A stretch of DNA of 40,229 bases from Butyrivibrio sp. Its GTDB lineage: Bacteria; Bacillota; Clostridia; Lachnospirales; Lachnospiraceae. Below are positions 2,610-35,096 of this stretch, piece by piece. Each line of letters opens with the position of its first letter. Within the stretch, counting starts at the first letter, position 1. Below the pieces are notes generated by a model that saw nothing but the letters and a program-made list of their open reading frames with translations, had not been told where the DNA came from and ran no database searches. The position numbers and the translations under genes were made by a program. Location of the stretch: contig JAEEXE010000027.1 of the NCBI GenBank assembly GCA_016291375.1, positions 1 through 40,229 of the forward strand, given 5' to 3'.

Positions 2610-3830
2610 ATGTCTAAACAATTACATGTAAGAATTGACGATGCAGTGTATGAAGCTTTGTCGGGATGCAATAAAGATCAAAATATATCTATGCAAGATT
2701 TGGTTTCATCCGCAATTATGCAGTATATAAATACGCAGAATAAAGAGACAACTCCAGTAAACTCAGATTTTACCTTTATAGATCTTTTCGCCGGTATTGG
2801 AGGGATGAGGATTGCTTATGAGAGTGTCGGAGGACATTGTGTATATTCAAACGAGTGGAATAAATATAGTCAACAGACGTATTTTGCAAACTTTGGTGAA
2901 CAGCCTGATGGTGATATAACTAAAGTTAATGAGAAAGATATACCGGAGCATGATATTCTTGTTGCAGGATTTCCATGTCAACCTTTTTCTATTGCAGGAG
3001 TTTCAAAAAAGCAGAGCATGGGGAGGGCAACTGGGTTTGAAGACAAAACGCAAGGAACGCTTTTTTTCGACGTGTGCAGGATTCTGAAAGCAAAAAGACC
3101 AAAGGCGTTTATGCTTGAGAATGTAAAGAATCTTTGTAGTCATGATAGAGGAAGAACATTTAAAGTAATAAGGGAATCTCTTAATGAACTTGACTATGAG
3201 GTGTTTTACCAAGTTATAGATGGTCAGTCTTTTGTTCCACAGCATAGAGAGAGAATTATTATTGTAGGATTTGACAGGAAACGTTATGGTAAAGACATTC
3301 ATTTTTCTTTTGATATAAAAAAGAGTAATCATAAACCTGTCATGAAAGACATATTGGAACTCGAAGTGGATCCAAAATACACGCTTTCAGATAAACTATG
3401 GACATATCTTCAAGGATATGCAGCAAAGCATAAGGCTGCTGGAAATGGATTTGGTTACGGTATAGCAGATCCTAATGGCATTTCAAGAACATTAAGTGCA
3501 AGATATTATAAAGATGGATCGGAGATTTTGATTGAACAGGAAGGAAGAAATCCAAGAAGACTTACACCAAGAGAGTGTGCTAGATTACAAGGATTCCCAG
3601 ACACATTCAAAATTACCGTATCAGATACTCAGGCGTATAAACAATTTGGAAATTCGGTTGTTGTACCTCTTATGACCAATGTAGCCCAGCTGATTTGTTC
3701 TAAAATATCAGAACTTGATACCATTACAGCTCATAGCACAATAATAAAAGCAAAAAGAATTGAACCTGTTGGAATTAATCGGAACAAAGAGATGCATAAC
3801 ACTGGTAAGAAAATAAAAGCTGTTGTATAA
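2610..3830 (+). CDS. DNA (cytosine-5-)-methyltransferase with N-terminal ribbon-helix-helix domain (Dcm/M.EcoRII/DrmMII type)
   Basis: The 406-residue enzyme transfers methyl from S-adenosylmethionine to C5 of cytosine. Motif I is [10 protein letters not shown] (56-65), motif IV has the catalytic Cys in GFPCQPFS (C123), motif VI is ENV (170-172), motif VIII is QHRER (from 211), then [10 protein letters not shown] near 320 and QFGNS near 347. Residues 1-42 ([15 protein letters not shown]...SAIMQYI) look like a CopG/Arc ribbon-helix-helix domain, suggesting self-regulation as in M.SsoII-type enzymes with N-terminal DNA-binding regions. The following gene is an EcoRII-type endonuclease, so the target is probably CCWGG. 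DrmMII of class 2 DISARM is also reported to methylate CCWGG, so this enzyme could serve both systems. GGAGAG precedes the ATG at 2610. Confidence 0.9.
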
Positions 3831-22851: not shown

Positions 22852-22916
22852 AGATTCCATTGATGACAATTTGAGTTTATTATATATGCGCTGTGTTTGC
22901 GCGGAATGGAGAGGTT

Positions 22917-24386
22917 TTGAGAGAAAAATACGAAACACTGAAACTTAATGATTTAAGAGACATTGCAAAGAAAAGGGGAATCAAGGGCGTAGCAGGACTT
23001 AAAAAGTCTGAGATTATAGATCTTATGTGCGAACTTGATGAGAAAGAGGCGGCGCAGAAGGCCAAGGAGCAGAGCGCAGAAGCTGAGGATAAGAAGTCTG
23101 ATAAGCCCGCTAAGCCTGCTCGCAAGAAGGTTGTTGTTAAGACAATCAATAAGGAAAATTCAGAAGCTTCTGAAAGACCTGTTAAGCAGGATGCTCCCGC
23201 GCACAAGGCTGAGAAGCAGGATGCAGCAGGCAGTCAGGAAGAGAACGAAGCTGATGTTGCAGAAGGTGACAGCGCTCACGGTATTCTTGAGGTTATGCAG
23301 GATGGATACGGTTTCATTAGATGTGAGAATTATCTTCCCGGTGAGAACGATGTTTATGTTGCACCCAGCCTTATCAGAAGATTTAACTTAAAGACCGGTG
23401 ATATTCTTTCAGGTACTTGCAGACCCAAGAAAGAGACAGATAAGTTTGCTGCTCTTTCAAGACTTGATACAGTTAATGGTTACAAGCCTGAAGTTGCTAT
23501 GGGAAGATGGAACTTTGAGAATATGACTCCTATTTTCCCTAATTCCAAGATCAGACTTGAGACTCCCGGCGCATCAGTTGCCATGAGGATCATGGATCTT
23601 ATCAGCCCTATCGGAAAGGGACAGAGAGGAATGATTGTATCTCCTCCTAAGGCAGGTAAGACAACACTTCTTAAAGAAGTTGCTAAGTCAATTCTTAAGA
23701 ACAGCCCCGAGATACATCTTATCATTCTTCTTATTGATGAGAGACCTGAGGAAGTTACAGATATTAAGGAATCAATCGAGGGACCTAATGCAGAGGTTAT
23801 TTATTCAACCTTTGATGAGCTTCCGGAGCATCACAAGAGAGTTGCCGAGATGGTAATGGAGAGGGCTAAGAGACTTGTAGAGCATGGTAAGGACGTTGTT
23901 ATCCTTCTTGATTCCATTACAAGACTTACAAGAGCTTATAACATTGTTGTTCCTCCTTCAGGAAGAACACTTTCAGGTGGTCTTGATCCCGCTGCTCTTC
24001 ACATGCCAAAGAGATTCTTTGGTGCAGCCAGAAATATGAGAGAGGGCGGAAGCCTTACTATCCTTGCTACAGCACTTATAGAGACAGGCTCTAAGATGGA
24101 TGATGTTATCTACGAGGAATTCAAGGGAACAGGTAACATGGAAATGGTTCTTGACAGAAAACTTCAAGAGAAGAGAATCTTCCCTGCTATCAATATTCCT
24201 AAATCAAGTACAAGAAGAGAGGATCTTCTTCTTACAAATGAGGAACTTGTTGCCATCAACAGTCTCCGCAAAGGCTTTAACGGCATGAAGGCAGATGATG
24301 CTGTAGACCAGTGCATCAACCTCTTCTCAAAGACAAGAAACAATGTTGAATTTGTCAGAATGGTAGAGAAGCAGATACGCTTCTAA
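22917..24386 (+). CDS. rho: Transcription termination factor Rho
   Basis: The 489-residue hexameric RNA helicase has a Rho N-terminal domain ([20 protein letters not shown]) and a charged Lys/Glu/Ala insertion at about 45-120. An RNA-binding domain ([20 protein letters not shown]) and the ATPase domain with Walker [12 protein letters not shown] and [11 protein letters not shown] follow. The C-terminal [20 protein letters not shown] block is complete. The TTG start at 22917 matches the family start and has GGAGAGG just upstream; the GTG at 22893 is less likely. The insertion is typical of Clostridia and Actinobacteria and may add RNA contacts. Confidence 0.95.
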
Positions 24387-24605: not shown

Positions 24606-25360
24606 TGTCTGCCTATAATCGGGATTTGTGGGAATATAGGCAGGAGGAAATGGTGGGTAATGCCTGCCTATAATCGGAATTTGTGGGAATATAGGCAGGA
24701 GGAAATGGTGGGTAATGCCTGCCTATAATCGGCATTTGTACGAATATAGGTAGGAAGAAATGGTGGGTAATGCCTGCCTATAATCGGCATTTGTAGGAAT
24801 ATAGGCAGGAAAGAAGGGCAGGTAATGCCTGCCTATAATCGGGATTTGTACGAATATAGGCAGGAAAGAAGGGCAGGTAATGCCTGCCTATAATCGGGAT
24901 TTGCAGGAATATAGGTAGGAAAAAAGAGCATGTAAAGCCTACCTATAATCGGCGCTTTCAGGAATATAGGTAGGAAAAAAGAGCATGTAAAGCCTACCTA
25001 TAATCGAGGTTCCAAGGAATATAGGTAGGAAAAAAGAGCATGTAAGTCTACCTATAATCGGCGCTTTCAGGAATATAGGTAGGAAAAAAGAGCATGTAAG
25101 TCTACCTATAATCGGCGCTTTCAGGAATATAGGTAGGAAAAAAGAGCGTGTAAAGCCTACCTATAATCGAGGTTCCAAGGAATATAGGTAGAAGAAAGAA
25201 CATGTAAAGCCTACCTATAATCGAGGTTTCAAGGAATATAGGCAGGAAAGAAGAGCATGTAAAGTCTACCTATAATCGAGGTTCCAAGGAATATAGGTAG
25301 AAAAAAAGAGCATGTAAGTCTGCCTATAATCGGCTTATTCAAGAATATAGACAGGAATAC
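24606..25360. repeat. Tandem array of 14 hairpin-forming units, period 54-55 bp
   Basis: The block CCTATAATCG recurs at 24612, 24667, 24722, 24777, 24832, 24887, 24942, 24997, 25051, 25105, 25160, 25214, 25269 and 25323, so every step is 54 or 55. Each unit has a left arm cct(g/a)cctata, a 17-base loop, a right arm tatagg(c/t)agg and a linker of 17-18 bases. The variable arm base changes in step: G with C in four units, A with T in six, G with T in two, one mismatch, and a decayed last unit. Loops fall into a few classes (ggXatttg, ggcgctttc, gaggttcc) that alternate along the array. There is no reading frame through it. Unlike CRISPR, the sequence between arms is not unique. Confidence 0.9.
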
Positions 25361-25397
25361 AGCCAGGAAAATAATAAATCAGAAAAGGAAAATGTAT

Positions 25398-26225
25398 ATG
25401 TACGGATTGGAAGAAATGTTAAAAAAGGAAAGAGACAGATTACTCAAAATAAGCAGAATTATTGATAGCAGGCTAACTAATGCTCCGGACGGTTTTTTGA
25501 AAATAACTACATCCAGGAATAAACCTCAATTCACGCATTGTGCTTACAATAAGAAAGATATCTACATCAAAAAGAATGATGCTAACCTTGCGCATAGACT
25601 TGCTCAGAAAACCTATGATACCAATGTGAAAAGACTTGTTGATAAAAGACTCAAGCAGCTTGATAGACTTGCTGAAGAGTATAAAGATAATGAGATCGAT
25701 GATATATTTCAGCAGCTTCATCCAATTAGAAAAAGCATAGTAGAAGCAGTTGAGACTCCATGGGATCAGCGTATCAGGGAATGGAAGAGCATCCCATATA
25801 ACGGAAAAGAGTTTGCAGAGAATGTGCCTGTAATATATACAAAGAAGGGCGAACGAGTTCGTTCAAAGACAGAAAAGATACTTGCAGATTTTTTCTATGA
25901 TAATGGTATTGAATACAAGTATGAATGTCCGTTGACGCTAAAAGGAATCGGAACGATATATCCGGATTTTACTTTTTTAAGAAAAAGAGATGGTAAAGAA
26001 GTGTATTGGGAGCATGATGGTAGGATGGATGATCCCGCATACGCAGAGAAAGCAATTCAAAAGATTAATTCATATATGCTAAATGGCATATTTCCGGGAG
26101 ATAATCTAGTACTGTCTTTTGAATCTACAAAAACAGTATTAAGTGATAAGATCATACATGTTTTGGTGAAACAATATGGGTTAAAGAGTGAATTACCTAA
26201 AAGAAATGATCCGGGAAATAAATGA
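25398..26225 (+). CDS. PD-(D/E)XK nuclease-like protein next to the hairpin array
   Basis: The 275-residue protein has a Lys/Arg-rich helical N-terminal part to about residue 120. The C-terminal domain contains RSKTEKILADFFYDNGIEYK, PDFTFLRKRDGKEVYWEHDG and LVLSFESTKTVLSDKII. The E...PDF...YWEHDG order resembles a PD-(D/E)XK or restriction-like fold, but the last motif lacks a clean ExK, so activity is uncertain. Similar proteins of unknown function are common in Clostridia. AAGGA precedes the ATG at 25398 by about 8 bases (25392 is an alternative). The final repeat unit ends about 30 bases before the start, so the array is its leader region. A terminator follows. Confidence 0.6.
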   Translation: MYGLEEMLKKERDRLLKISRIIDSRLTNAPDGFLKITTSRNKPQFTHCAYNKKDIYIKKNDANLAHRLAQKTYDTNVKRLVDKRLKQLDRLAEEYKDNEIDDIFQQLHPIRKSIVEAVETPWDQRIREWKSIPYNGKEFAENVPVIYTKKGERVRSKTEKILADFFYDNGIEYKYECPLTLKGIGTIYPDFTFLRKRDGKEVYWEHDGRMDDPAYAEKAIQKINSYMLNGIFPGDNLVLSFESTKTVLSDKIIHVLVKQYGLKSELPKRNDPGNK

Positions 26226-29055: not shown

Positions 29056-29070
29056 GTATATCATGATATA
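29056..29070. repeat. Isolated right-end box of the palindromic element
   Basis: gtatatcatgatata contains the perfect palindrome TATATCATGATATA. The same box ends the copies at 29214-29226 and 29287-29300. Confidence 0.55.
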
Positions 29071-29082
29071 GGTGTCATAATT

Positions 29083-29117
29083 CAAAATGATTTCATGTTT
29101 ACATGAAAATCATTTTG
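29083..29117. promoter_or_regulatory. Long hairpin upstream of the YggS-type gene
   Basis: caaaatgatttcatg pairs with catgaaaatcattttg with one bulged base and a short loop. It has no T-run, so it is not a typical terminator. Confidence 0.5.
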
Positions 29118-29149
29118 GATTCATGACCCGAACAAATATGAGGAAGTAG

Positions 29150-29226
29150 CATGATAATGCGGATTCCGAATATTTGTAGATTTGCGGAAGCAGCGAAAGC
29201 TGCGGAGCAAATCGTATATCATGATA
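29150..29226. repeat. Dispersed palindromic element, copy 2
   Basis: Left box atgataatgcggattccgaa, core stem gatttgc...gcaaatc and right box gtatatcatgata. The inner hairpin is gcagc-gaaa-gctgc, different from the ATGAC hairpin of the other copies, with pairing kept. Confidence 0.7.
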
Positions 29227-32301: not shown

Positions 32302-32345
32302 GTGAGATTCACAAAAGGTCAAAACAGGATTTTTTGGAGGCGGAT

Positions 32346-35096
32346 ATGCAGATTTACGTAGCAGACAGCGTGTTAAGAAGCGGAGACGGTTCTATCGATC
32401 ATCCTTTTAAGACTGTTTCCGAGGCGGCTTTAGTAGCCGCAGAAGGCGACGTGGTTATTATTGCGCCGGGGATTTACAGAGAGTGGGTCAGACCGGCTTG
32501 TTCCGGAACTAAGGATAAGCCGATCACATATAAGGCAGCATCCAAGGGGGATGTTGTGATCACGGGAGCTGAGGTTTTAAGCGACTGGGAGGCTTTTGAG
32601 AATGTGTGGAGGGTTCGCATTCCCAACAGCTATTTTGGAGATTATAACCCTTATACAGATGTTATTCATGGGGACTGGTTCTTTGCAAGCAAAGACGAGA
32701 CACCTCATACCGGAGAAGTATATCTAAACGGAAGATCTATGCTGGAAGTATTTGATCTTTCATATTGCATGCATCCTGTGGAAGATAAGAGATCATGGGA
32801 CATTGCATCAACAAATCTTGTGTGGTTTACTGCTCAGGAAGACGACACAACAGTTATCTATGCCAATTTTGGAGAACTTGACCCCAACAGGGAGAATGTG
32901 GAGTTCTCAGTCCGTAAGGCATGTTTTTTCCCATCAAGAATAGGCATCAATTATATTACTGTTTCTGGCCTTACCATCAGGCAGGCTGCAACGCAGTGGG
33001 CGCCACCGACAGCTTTTCAGGAGGGCATGATAGGTCCAAACTGGTCTAAAGGCTGGATAATCGAAGACTGCGAGATTTCTGAGTCTAAGTGCTGCGGTAT
33101 CAGTCTTGGCAAGTATTTTCAGGCCGGCAGCAACAACAAGTGGACGAGCTTTTGGTTAAAAGATGGAACGCAGACCCAGAGGGATGCAGTATGCCAGGCA
33201 GTCAATGAAGGCTGGGATAAAAAGAATGTGGGCTCACATATAATAAGGCGCTGCGATATTCACGACTGCGGACAGACAGGTATCGTTGGTCATATGGGCG
33301 GTGCTTTCTGTACAATAGAAGATAATCATATTCATCATATCAATATCAAACACAATCTAAGAGGCGCTGAGATAGCTGGTATCAAGTTACATGCGGCTAT
33401 AGACACTCAGATTAGGCGCAATCATATCGATCACTGTACCAGAGGTATATGGCTTGACTGGGAGGCTCAGGGCACAAGAGTTAATCTTAATTTCATGCAC
33501 GACAATGTTCCGCCTAAGGGAACTGTAATAGAAGATGAGCTGTCTCTTGGAGAAGATATCTTTATAGAGGTTTCCCACGGCCCTACGCTTGTTGATCACA
33601 ACCTGCTGCTCTCTGATATTGCTGCAAGGATAAGCACTCAGGGCATAGCCTTTGTACATAATCTTATAGCAGGCTCTTTTACCTATGTAGGACAGGGTAC
33701 CGGCAATCTTGGAAAGAGATTTGCATCCGACAGATATACGCCGTATCATGTGCCTCATTCAACAAAGATTGCAGGCTTTATGACTATCCTTCACGGTGAT
33801 GCAAGATTTTATAACAACATCTTTATACAGCAGCCTGTCAGGGAAGATCTGGTTAATTACTGCGTATCCAATAATCGCGATACAATGGATCTTAATAACT
33901 TTATATGCGGAACAATTCCCTACAACAATTATCCTATGCCTTCCGAGTATTTCGAAAGATTTAAGGGTAATGCCATGGAGCTTTACGGCAATAATGATAT
34001 CTACTATGATCATCTGCCGGTATATCTTGGAGGAAATGCGTACTTTAACGGAGCGCGCCCTTGCGACAACGAGGGCTTTTGCCATGTGGACAAGGATCAC
34101 AAGATAACGCTCTACATTGATGAGACTGACGGAAGATATACGATTCATACCAATCTGTATGAATTCCTTCCAAGAGGCTTTACTGTGCCGGTTAACAGTA
34201 AGAGCCTCGGAAATGCCTTTGAATCCGAGCAAAGATTTGAAAATCCTGACGGAAGCAGTATCTCTTTTGACACTGATTATTTCGGGCGTAAAAGAGGAAG
34301 AGCCCCCGTATCGGGACCTTTTGAGGAGTGCGGAAGCGACAGATTCACCGTGCAGACTCCTTACGACTATTCTCACAGGATCAGCCATAAGGAAAAAGGC
34401 AGGATAGAAGATAAGGTTGCCACCGGGCAGGTGATATTCGGCGTCGACACCAGGGCCGTGACCTTCCAAGAAAAAGAGAATGTCGCGGATGATAAGGGAA
34501 GCGGCATGAATATCCAAGAAAAAGAGAATGTCGCGGATAATAAGGGAAGCGGCGTTAATTACGAGGGAAATGAGAATATCGCTGATTATGAGGACGAGGT
34601 GACAGAGATAAACGCAGGCATCATGATAACAGGGTGCACCAATGCGGGTATCAGCTTTCCCTATGAGGGAGGACTTTTTAAAGTCAGCGATATGTTCGCA
34701 AAAGGAAATGAAGCATGGCTCTATGATAGTGAAGCTAAGAAACTTGTAGAACTTGACTGCGAGTACGGTATATATCACAATATGAAGAAGTGGTCTATCG
34801 GCGCGCCTCAGTCAATTGATGCCGCTATGGATGCAAATGCTGAAGGTTTGGTGAGGACAGCCGGGACTTTATTGTGTATACTTAGTAAGAGTATGCCTCA
34901 TGATCCCGAGGATACCTGTGGTACAATACAGGATAGAGTCAATAACGGGATAGAGCCCAAGGGCATTGAGATGAGGTTCACTCCCAAGCATTTAAAATTT
35001 ATCAGAGGAAAGAAGTTTATTACCTTGGAAGATGTTATCTACAGAGTCAGCCGCGGCGACATGGAGATTGTAACCGAGAGACTTGAAAATATCTAA
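32346..35096 (+). CDS. GH120 family beta-xylosidase-like enzyme with long C-terminal extension
   Basis: The 916-residue parallel beta-helix protein matches GH120, typified by XylC of Thermoanaerobacterium: ITYKAASKGDVVITGAEVLS, QAATQWAPPTAFQEG, MIGPNWSKGWIIEDCEIS, CDIHDCGQTGIVGHMGG and IAGIKLHAAIDTQIRRNHID. The likely nucleophile is D371 in GIWLDWEAQGT and the acid/base E408 in FIEVSHGP. No signal peptide is present, so it acts on imported xylo-oligosaccharides. It is about 280 residues longer than XylC: a linker with an exact-style 16-residue repeat (EKENVADxKGSG) and a separate C-terminal domain of about 160 residues follow the helix. GGAGG lies 5 bases before the ATG. It heads a likely four-gene unit. 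Confidence 0.9.
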   Translation: MQIYVADSVLRSGDGSIDHPFKTVSEAALVAAEGDVVIIAPGIYREWVRPACSGTKDKPITYKAASKGDVVITGAEVLSDWEAFENVWRVRIPNSYFGDYNPYTDVIHGDWFFASKDETPHTGEVYLNGRSMLEVFDLSYCMHPVEDKRSWDIASTNLVWFTAQEDDTTVIYANFGELDPNRENVEFSVRKACFFPSRIGINYITVSGLTIRQAATQWAPPTAFQEGMIGPNWSKGWIIEDCEISESKCCGISLGKYFQAGSNNKWTSFWLKDGTQTQRDAVCQAVNEGWDKKNVGSHIIRRCDIHDCGQTGIVGHMGGAFCTIEDNHIHHINIKHNLRGAEIAGIKLHAAIDTQIRRNHIDHCTRGIWLDWEAQGTRVNLNFMHDNVPPKGTVIEDELSLGEDIFIEVSHGPTLVDHNLLLSDIAARISTQGIAFVHNLIAGSFTYVGQGTGNLGKRFASDRYTPYHVPHSTKIAGFMTILHGDARFYNNIFIQQPVREDLVNYCVSNNRDTMDLNNFICGTIPYNNYPMPSEYFERFKGNAMELYGNNDIYYDHLPVYLGGNAYFNGARPCDNEGFCHVDKDHKITLYIDETDGRYTIHTNLYEFLPRGFTVPVNSKSLGNAFESEQRFENPDGSSISFDTDYFGRKRGRAPVSGPFEECGSDRFTVQTPYDYSHRISHKEKGRIEDKVATGQVIFGVDTRAVTFQEKENVADDKGSGMNIQEKENVADNKGSGVNYEGNENIADYEDEVTEINAGIMITGCTNAGISFPYEGGLFKVSDMFAKGNEAWLYDSEAKKLVELDCEYGIYHNMKKWSIGAPQSIDAAMDANAEGLVRTAGTLLCILSKSMPHDPEDTCGTIQDRVNNGIEPKGIEMRFTPKHLKFIRGKKFITLEDVIYRVSRGDMEIVTERLENI
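34466..34553 (+). repeat. In-frame tandem repeat in the GH120 linker
   Basis: Two copies of a 40-base block (34466-34505 and 34514-34553) at a 48-base period encode QEKENVAD(D/N)KGSG, followed by a weaker third copy (EGNENIADYED). Recent DNA-level duplication is likely. Confidence 0.8.

Follow-up and report, generated by a model that had tools for sequence, protein, structure and literature searches.

A 54/55-bp hairpin array directly upstream of a predicted nuclease gene in Butyrivibrio sp.: a probable two-part system

Introduction

Short palindromic repeats occur in many bacterial genomes, and the question raised by the locus described here is whether a series of such repeats belongs with the gene that it precedes. 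The window, i.e. the whole stretch of 40,229 nucleotides that was analysed, comprises positions 1-40,229 (forward strand) of contig JAEEXE010000027.1 in Butyrivibrio sp. assembly GCA_016291375.1. It contains 14 imperfect hairpin (dyad) units in tandem, with a period of 54/55 bp (24608..25355, + strand). Behind this array lies a gene (25392..26225, + strand) whose 277-aa product is predicted to be a stand-alone nuclease of PD-(D/E)XK type. In Butyrivibrio, this small predicted nuclease is usually encoded directly behind a hairpin array with a period of about 54 bp. Array and gene are interpreted here, with a probability of roughly 0.57, as a two-part system in which the nuclease recognises its own hairpin repeat and its cuts are likely to drive the tandem multiplication of the repeat and its spread to other intergenic sites. 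The observations behind this interpretation are the adjacency of array and gene, the conserved pairing, the change of the repeat along with the nuclease, the genome-specific spread of four of five repeat types, the likeness of units within a locus and the variation between sites. The window genome (G000) is 3.0 Mb in size, 88% complete with 4.7% contamination, and is placed in the same genus as G016 and G035.

The array and the nuclease

Each unit of the array consists of the left arm CCTRCCTATAAT, a 14-nt loop, the right arm ATATAGGYAGG and a spacer of 17-18 nt. Unit 1 (arm-loop-arm, 37 bp) is located at 24608..24644 (+), units 2-14 start at 24663, 24718, 24773, 24828, 24883, 24938, 24993, 25047, 25101, 25156, 25210, 25265 and 25319, and the outer foot of the last unit (25319..25355, +) is separated by 36 bp from the ATG of the nuclease gene at 25392. 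The unit anchors run from 24612 to 25323 in steps of 55 (seven times), 54, 54, 55, 54, 55 and 54, and Tandem Repeats Finder (TRF) reported a period of 55 with 13.3 copies and 90% matches. One unit corresponds to about 5.2 helical turns, and the period is strictly kept. The number of units, their spacing and the end of the array at the start region of a PD-(D/E)XK-like gene had all been given correctly in an earlier sequence-only reading of this DNA. Its statement that the array is non-coding agrees with the absence of any open reading frame (ORF) of 80 aa or more inside the array, and the units fall in blocks, as expected from the blockwise copying that it proposed. A CRISPR (clustered regularly interspaced short palindromic repeats) array, likewise dismissed there, was rejected because loops and spacers recur between units; no Cas family was found among the ten window ORFs scanned. 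Rfam gave no match in the array at the gathering score, the only hit being mir-2943, with E values no better than 0.36 and 20.9 bits where 76 would be required.

The window protein is predicted, from fold comparison and its acidic motif, to be a nuclease of the PD-(D/E)XK superfamily. Its C-terminal domain matches the nuclease domain of PADLOC family PDC-S68 (4.9e-25). The nearest folds are those of I-Bth0305I (PDB 3r3p; 12% sequence identity) and TnsA (PDB 1t0f), with scores near background. An alignment of 93 sequences revealed invariant residues to which an active-site role may be assigned: Glu161 (predicted active-site residue, codon at 25872..25874, +), Asp192 of a PDF motif (25965..25967, +) and Glu207-His208 of a WEHxG motif (26010..26015, +). 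An invariant Lys is absent at the classic PD-(D/E)XK motif position, and one His is invariant in the same alignment. No transposase family was found among the Pfam matches up to E 1 in the seven members scanned; over the 93 members, one OrfB_IS605 match (0.0093) was present among the 25 of 78 weak families listed.

Association of array and gene

The link of the array to a nuclease-type gene, next to which the sequence-only reading had placed it, was confirmed in a survey of homologues. From 88 loci at the start, with 11 carrying an identical gene piece counted once, 52 loci of at least 43.5% identity and 25 of lower identity were retained; the homologues below 44% comprise 21 chosen from the matches listed (L107-L127) and four from another search. 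An array was scored when TRF gave a score of at least 80 and a period of 50-58, with consensus hairpin arms of at least 7, within 700 bp of the gene, and loci with less than 350 bp on one side were excluded for that side. Among the closer homologues, an array was present upstream in 39 of 49 loci and downstream in one of 50. None was present ahead of other ORFs from these loci (0/132 upstream regions) or in dinucleotide shuffles (0/49). The best period was 52-55 in 42 of the 45 closer-homologue upstream regions where TRF gave a repeat of period 20-100. Distant homologues (below 43.5%) had an array upstream in 3/25 and downstream in 1/25 loci.

Different nucleases carry different arm types, and the similarity of the repeat units tracks nuclease identity (Spearman 0.37, 42 loci, reached in 0/2000 permutations). 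Some nucleases of less than 40% identity also have 52-54-bp hairpin arrays, namely L111 (2067-2378 and 4561-4906) and L123 (2203-2308 and 3804-3919), both on the two sides of the gene, and L127 (3522-3798, position on the locus strand). The array of B. hungatei XBD2006 contains a run of N (L062, about 3467-3716), which is either an assembly gap or a masked stretch.

Conserved pairing

The sequence-only reading had also held that pairing is kept while the sequence drifts. This is strongly supported by comparison between species and only weakly inside the window array. The variable arm position carries five G-C, six A-T, two G-T and one A-C pair over the 14 units, where four, six, two and one had been counted, a total of 13 units. 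The T-A outer pair described for unit 13 is present; T-G occurs at that place in units 1, 9, 10 and 14, and C-A in unit 11. Covariation at the variable position is not significant within the window array (Fisher p = 0.10, 14 units) or over 60 G000 units (Fisher p = 0.12); the units in the window array were copied in blocks and hence are not independent for such statistics.

Between species, the comparison was made at loci where nuclease and array lie behind rho (22893..24386, + in the window), an arrangement found in six species (G000, G016, G035, G024, G033 and G046); since rho is conserved upstream, the locus is taken to be the same in all six. Other nuclease types sit elsewhere: rho was not seen in the examined stretch at 11 of the 17 nuclease loci searched. 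The comparison set contained 49 units from the six rho-linked loci, 29 of them distinct in their arms. Both sides had changed at seven of nine arm pairs (as many in 2/500 shuffles), pairing cells reached 90% compared with 83.5% after shuffling (0/500), and the covariation score was reached by 0/500 shuffles; the units being related, such shuffle counts cannot be read as probabilities. Further pair types at these loci were not exceptional in number (68/500 shuffles). When the partner arm was slid, pairing fell to 31-50%, in a control that retains relatedness and favours structure read from these same sequences.

Spread and turnover of the repeats

The window hairpin was matched 33 times in forward orientation in G000 (at most two mismatches) and in none of 78 congeners; its reversed control had no match in G000 and one match in one other genome. 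A template scan of G000 stretches with up to five mismatches found 61 units at nine loci, all between longer ORFs: the window array, seven arrays of 2-12 units spaced in 54/55 steps, and a lone unit. No nuclease homologue was found near the other eight loci in the stretches examined, and G000 has one nuclease match among the matches listed. Neither these eight loci nor the related nucleases with arm types of their own had been noticed in the sequence-only reading, which is supported in part. In that reading, arrays at random places with neither a link to the gene nor transcription would have marked a neutral satellite. Eight gene-free loci do exist, yet both the type of the arrays and their adjacency (39/49 compared with 0/132) connect them with the gene.

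Spread in the own genome with near-absence from congeners was observed for four of the five types scanned. The nuclease-adjacent hairpin of G021 has 32 matches in G021, one each in G109 and G023 and none in 76 genomes, the control giving none. That of G024 has 28 matches in G024 and one or two in each of nine other genomes, of which two represent nuclease-locus arrays, G036 has one exact unit and G047 two array units; its control had one match in each of two genomes. The G008 hairpin was found 25 times in G008, with eight matches at the nuclease locus and 17 at other places, most of these having a left arm that differs slightly. Seven other genomes gave eight matches, compared with four control matches in three genomes. 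The B. hungatei type is the exception: with a stricter pattern that included loop letters, it was found only at the nuclease locus (5 and 3 matches) and in none of 77 other genomes.

Units of one locus resemble each other more closely (0.78) than units of different loci do (0.63; 0/2000 permutations), so arrays seem to grow locally. Two of the G000 arrays precede an NFACT/FbpA gene and a flotillin gene; at the counterparts of these loci in G016, G035, G033 and G046 there is no tandem repeat of period 45-65 in the stretches examined, and window-type units were found nowhere in these four genomes. Arrays also differ between sister species. G036 is 97% identical to G024 over 2167 bp including a gene that we take, from its sequence, to be argH. 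There, G036 has a single G024-type unit between a gene and argH, and G024 has neither that gene nor the unit. The segment in question is about 1.2 kb long (L165 2690-3897), contains a gene resembling helix-turn-helix/desulfoferrodoxin genes besides the hairpin unit, and is absent from G024. Another site holds at least 17 units in G024, split as nine plus eight between two contig ends whose junction is based on synteny only; in G036 a pair of units with a different arm type stands there at a distance of 54 bp. The edge unit in G024 combines the old left arm with the new right arm, which together with the other-type units of G036 suggests that an older array was overwritten. Two of the three nuclease matches of G036, among the matches listed, have other arm types.

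Proposed mechanism and alternatives

In the proposed two-part system, the protein would cut DNA and would bind its own repeat, as a double-stranded dyad of 54 bp or in the form of the extruded hairpin. Repair of the cuts would produce tandem copies and seed new arrays, and the units upstream of the gene would be its own source and perhaps its operator. If one nuclease dimer sat on every 54-bp dyad, the constancy of the period would be accounted for. According to a review (PMC3943268), the EDxHD enzyme I-Bth0305I forms dimers on a target of nearly 60 bp, a hint that a dimer footprint may set the 54-bp period. More tentatively, and with odds below even, the system may represent a new class of self-amplifying repeat system, in effect a nuclease-driven bacterial satellite with co-evolving specificity: a homing-type PD-(D/E)XK dimer with a footprint of about 54 bp would cut its own dyads, and repair would multiply them, seed arrays and overwrite older arm types.

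Two observations weigh slightly against the proposed mechanism. An exact scan of a sixth, shared type (CTGTTGGAAT/ATTTCAACAG) gave a mixed picture, with matches in six of 79 genomes: at the nuclease locus only in G005, G019 and G036, at the nuclease locus and elsewhere in G021, and away from any homologue within the stretch examined in G006 and G047. Also, a promoter-like site (25348-25375, 10/12 consensus matches, such matches being no evidence of function) begins within the last unit, so that the nuclease mRNA need not contain the array. The G047 and G006 arrays that have no homologous nuclease within the stretch examined are located at L166 3767-4251, L167 3586-3898 and L168 3771-3973.

The promoter-like site would suit an arrangement in which the nuclease or a host protein binds the dyads as operators or decoys and controls the nuclease gene, the spread copies being by-products or regulators of neighbouring genes. 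The upstream position in 39 of 49 loci, with a downstream array as well in only one, the compensatory maintenance of the dyads, and a co-directional gene behind the unit at seven of nine G000 loci (our reading) are consistent with this. However, 14 units far exceed the need of an operator, at two of the nine loci no co-directional gene follows (one of the two lies before a tRNA gene on the other strand), and the genome-specific spread is left unexplained; this alternative is considered unlikely. Somewhat less likely again is the logic of a type III toxin-antitoxin system, with the array transcribed as a repeat RNA that would bind and hold an RNA-cutting toxin encoded behind it. Structured repeats do lie directly upstream of a nuclease-type gene, both change together, and with a gap of 36 bp the array may lie in the leader. 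On the other hand, transcription from the promoter-like site, which reaches from within the last unit to just past it, would miss the array. A consensus scan of this locus found no terminator-like site on the + strand in the gap that separates array and gene; a terminator at that place serves as a mark by which type III loci are recognised (PMC8860590). The nuclease domain is PD-(D/E)XK-like, no Pfam toxin family was matched at E 0.001 (Tox-HDC weakly, 0.0052), and eight hairpin loci of G000 are gene-free. A ToxN/AbiQ-type fold was not among the folds listed for the window protein, which does not exclude such a fold.

The strictly kept period of about 5.2 helical turns and the retention of the nuclease locus beside rho in six species could be expected of chromosomal sites useful to the host (for topology, DNA looping or mRNA ends), spread by ordinary recombination and with the nuclease as a maintenance factor. 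This is judged improbable in view of the fast turnover, the near-absence of the types from congeners and the lack of an array at two orthologous sites in four relatives. A neutral minisatellite with no link to the gene would account for the tandem order, the variable copy number, the position between longer ORFs and the blockwise copying. It is already contradicted by the adjacency (39/49 compared with 0/132) and the covariation counts; a satellite unrelated to the gene is not supported because the type follows the nuclease and pairing is conserved, and very little probability remains for it.

Comparison with known systems

By analogy, the proposed two-part system is regarded as a new kind of system that is likely to work like the REPtron, i.e. 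a REP-associated tyrosine transposase (RAYT, TnpA-REP) with repetitive extragenic palindromic (REP) or BIME elements, which this transposase presumably multiplies and spreads, but with an unrelated enzyme. In both, the gene is mostly single-copy, shows no sign of mobility of its own and has palindromic repeats beside it (PMC8266576 and PMC3733652). As described in those papers, cognate repeats are spread in the genome, mostly intergenic and type-specific, as here for four of five types; enzyme and repeat change together; and a stem irregularity is conserved in one REPtron group, comparable to the A-A mismatch in the stem of 59 of the 61 window-type units of G000. In contrast, REPtrons have an HuH/Tyr (Y1) transposase instead of a predicted PD-(D/E)XK-type nuclease, REP/inverted-REP pairs instead of direct tandem arrays of 52-55 bp that are nearly always upstream only, and a GTAG or CGTC tag at the stem foot, whereas the unit feet here vary between types and none is shared. 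Enzyme class and foot motif set the system apart from REPtrons, and the missing terminator-like site sets it apart from type III loci; for these reasons it is called a new kind.

We know of no repeat array that accompanies I-Bth0305I and of no genome-wide repeat spread in type III toxin-antitoxin systems; TnsA of Tn7 works with TnsB and TnsC at the transposon ends, and no TnsB/TnsC-type family was found among the ten window ORFs scanned. I-Bth0305I also differs in belonging to a phage-derived homing family (PMC3943268). The type III system ToxIN resembles the present locus in its structured tandem repeats upstream of a nuclease gene and differs in its pseudoknot RNA and the terminator between its parts (PMC8860590). 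Candidate defence proteins of family PDC-S68 share the C-terminal nuclease domain; their profiles are about 1200 positions long, whereas in the window protein the domain is preceded by a distinct N-terminal part of about 140 aa, and an array accompanies the gene. No such combination of nuclease and hairpin array was named among the literature matches listed, most subscription papers lying outside the coverage. If the proposed mechanism is correct, a second, unrelated class of enzyme has a cognate, fast-changing repeat, and this way of life would seem to have arisen more than once. The nucleases and their arrays would then form a natural enzyme-target series for the study of how DNA or hairpin specificity evolves, and would account for a species-specific share of Butyrivibrio intergenic DNA.

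Other features of the window

In the second part of the array (24908-25318), the units contain eight recurring minus-strand promoter-like sites composed of TTTACA or CTTACA, a gap of 16-17 nt and TATATT. In total, 13 promoter-like sites were found in the scanned region, compared with 6.3 expected (standard deviation 2.6). A full-length Clostridiales-1 RNA (Rfam RF01699, 113.8 bits) is present at 29064-29221 (+). A 920-aa ORF (32334-35096) with matches to a GH120 insertion domain and to a beta helix contains a 48-bp tandem repeat of 2.7 copies at 34466-34593.
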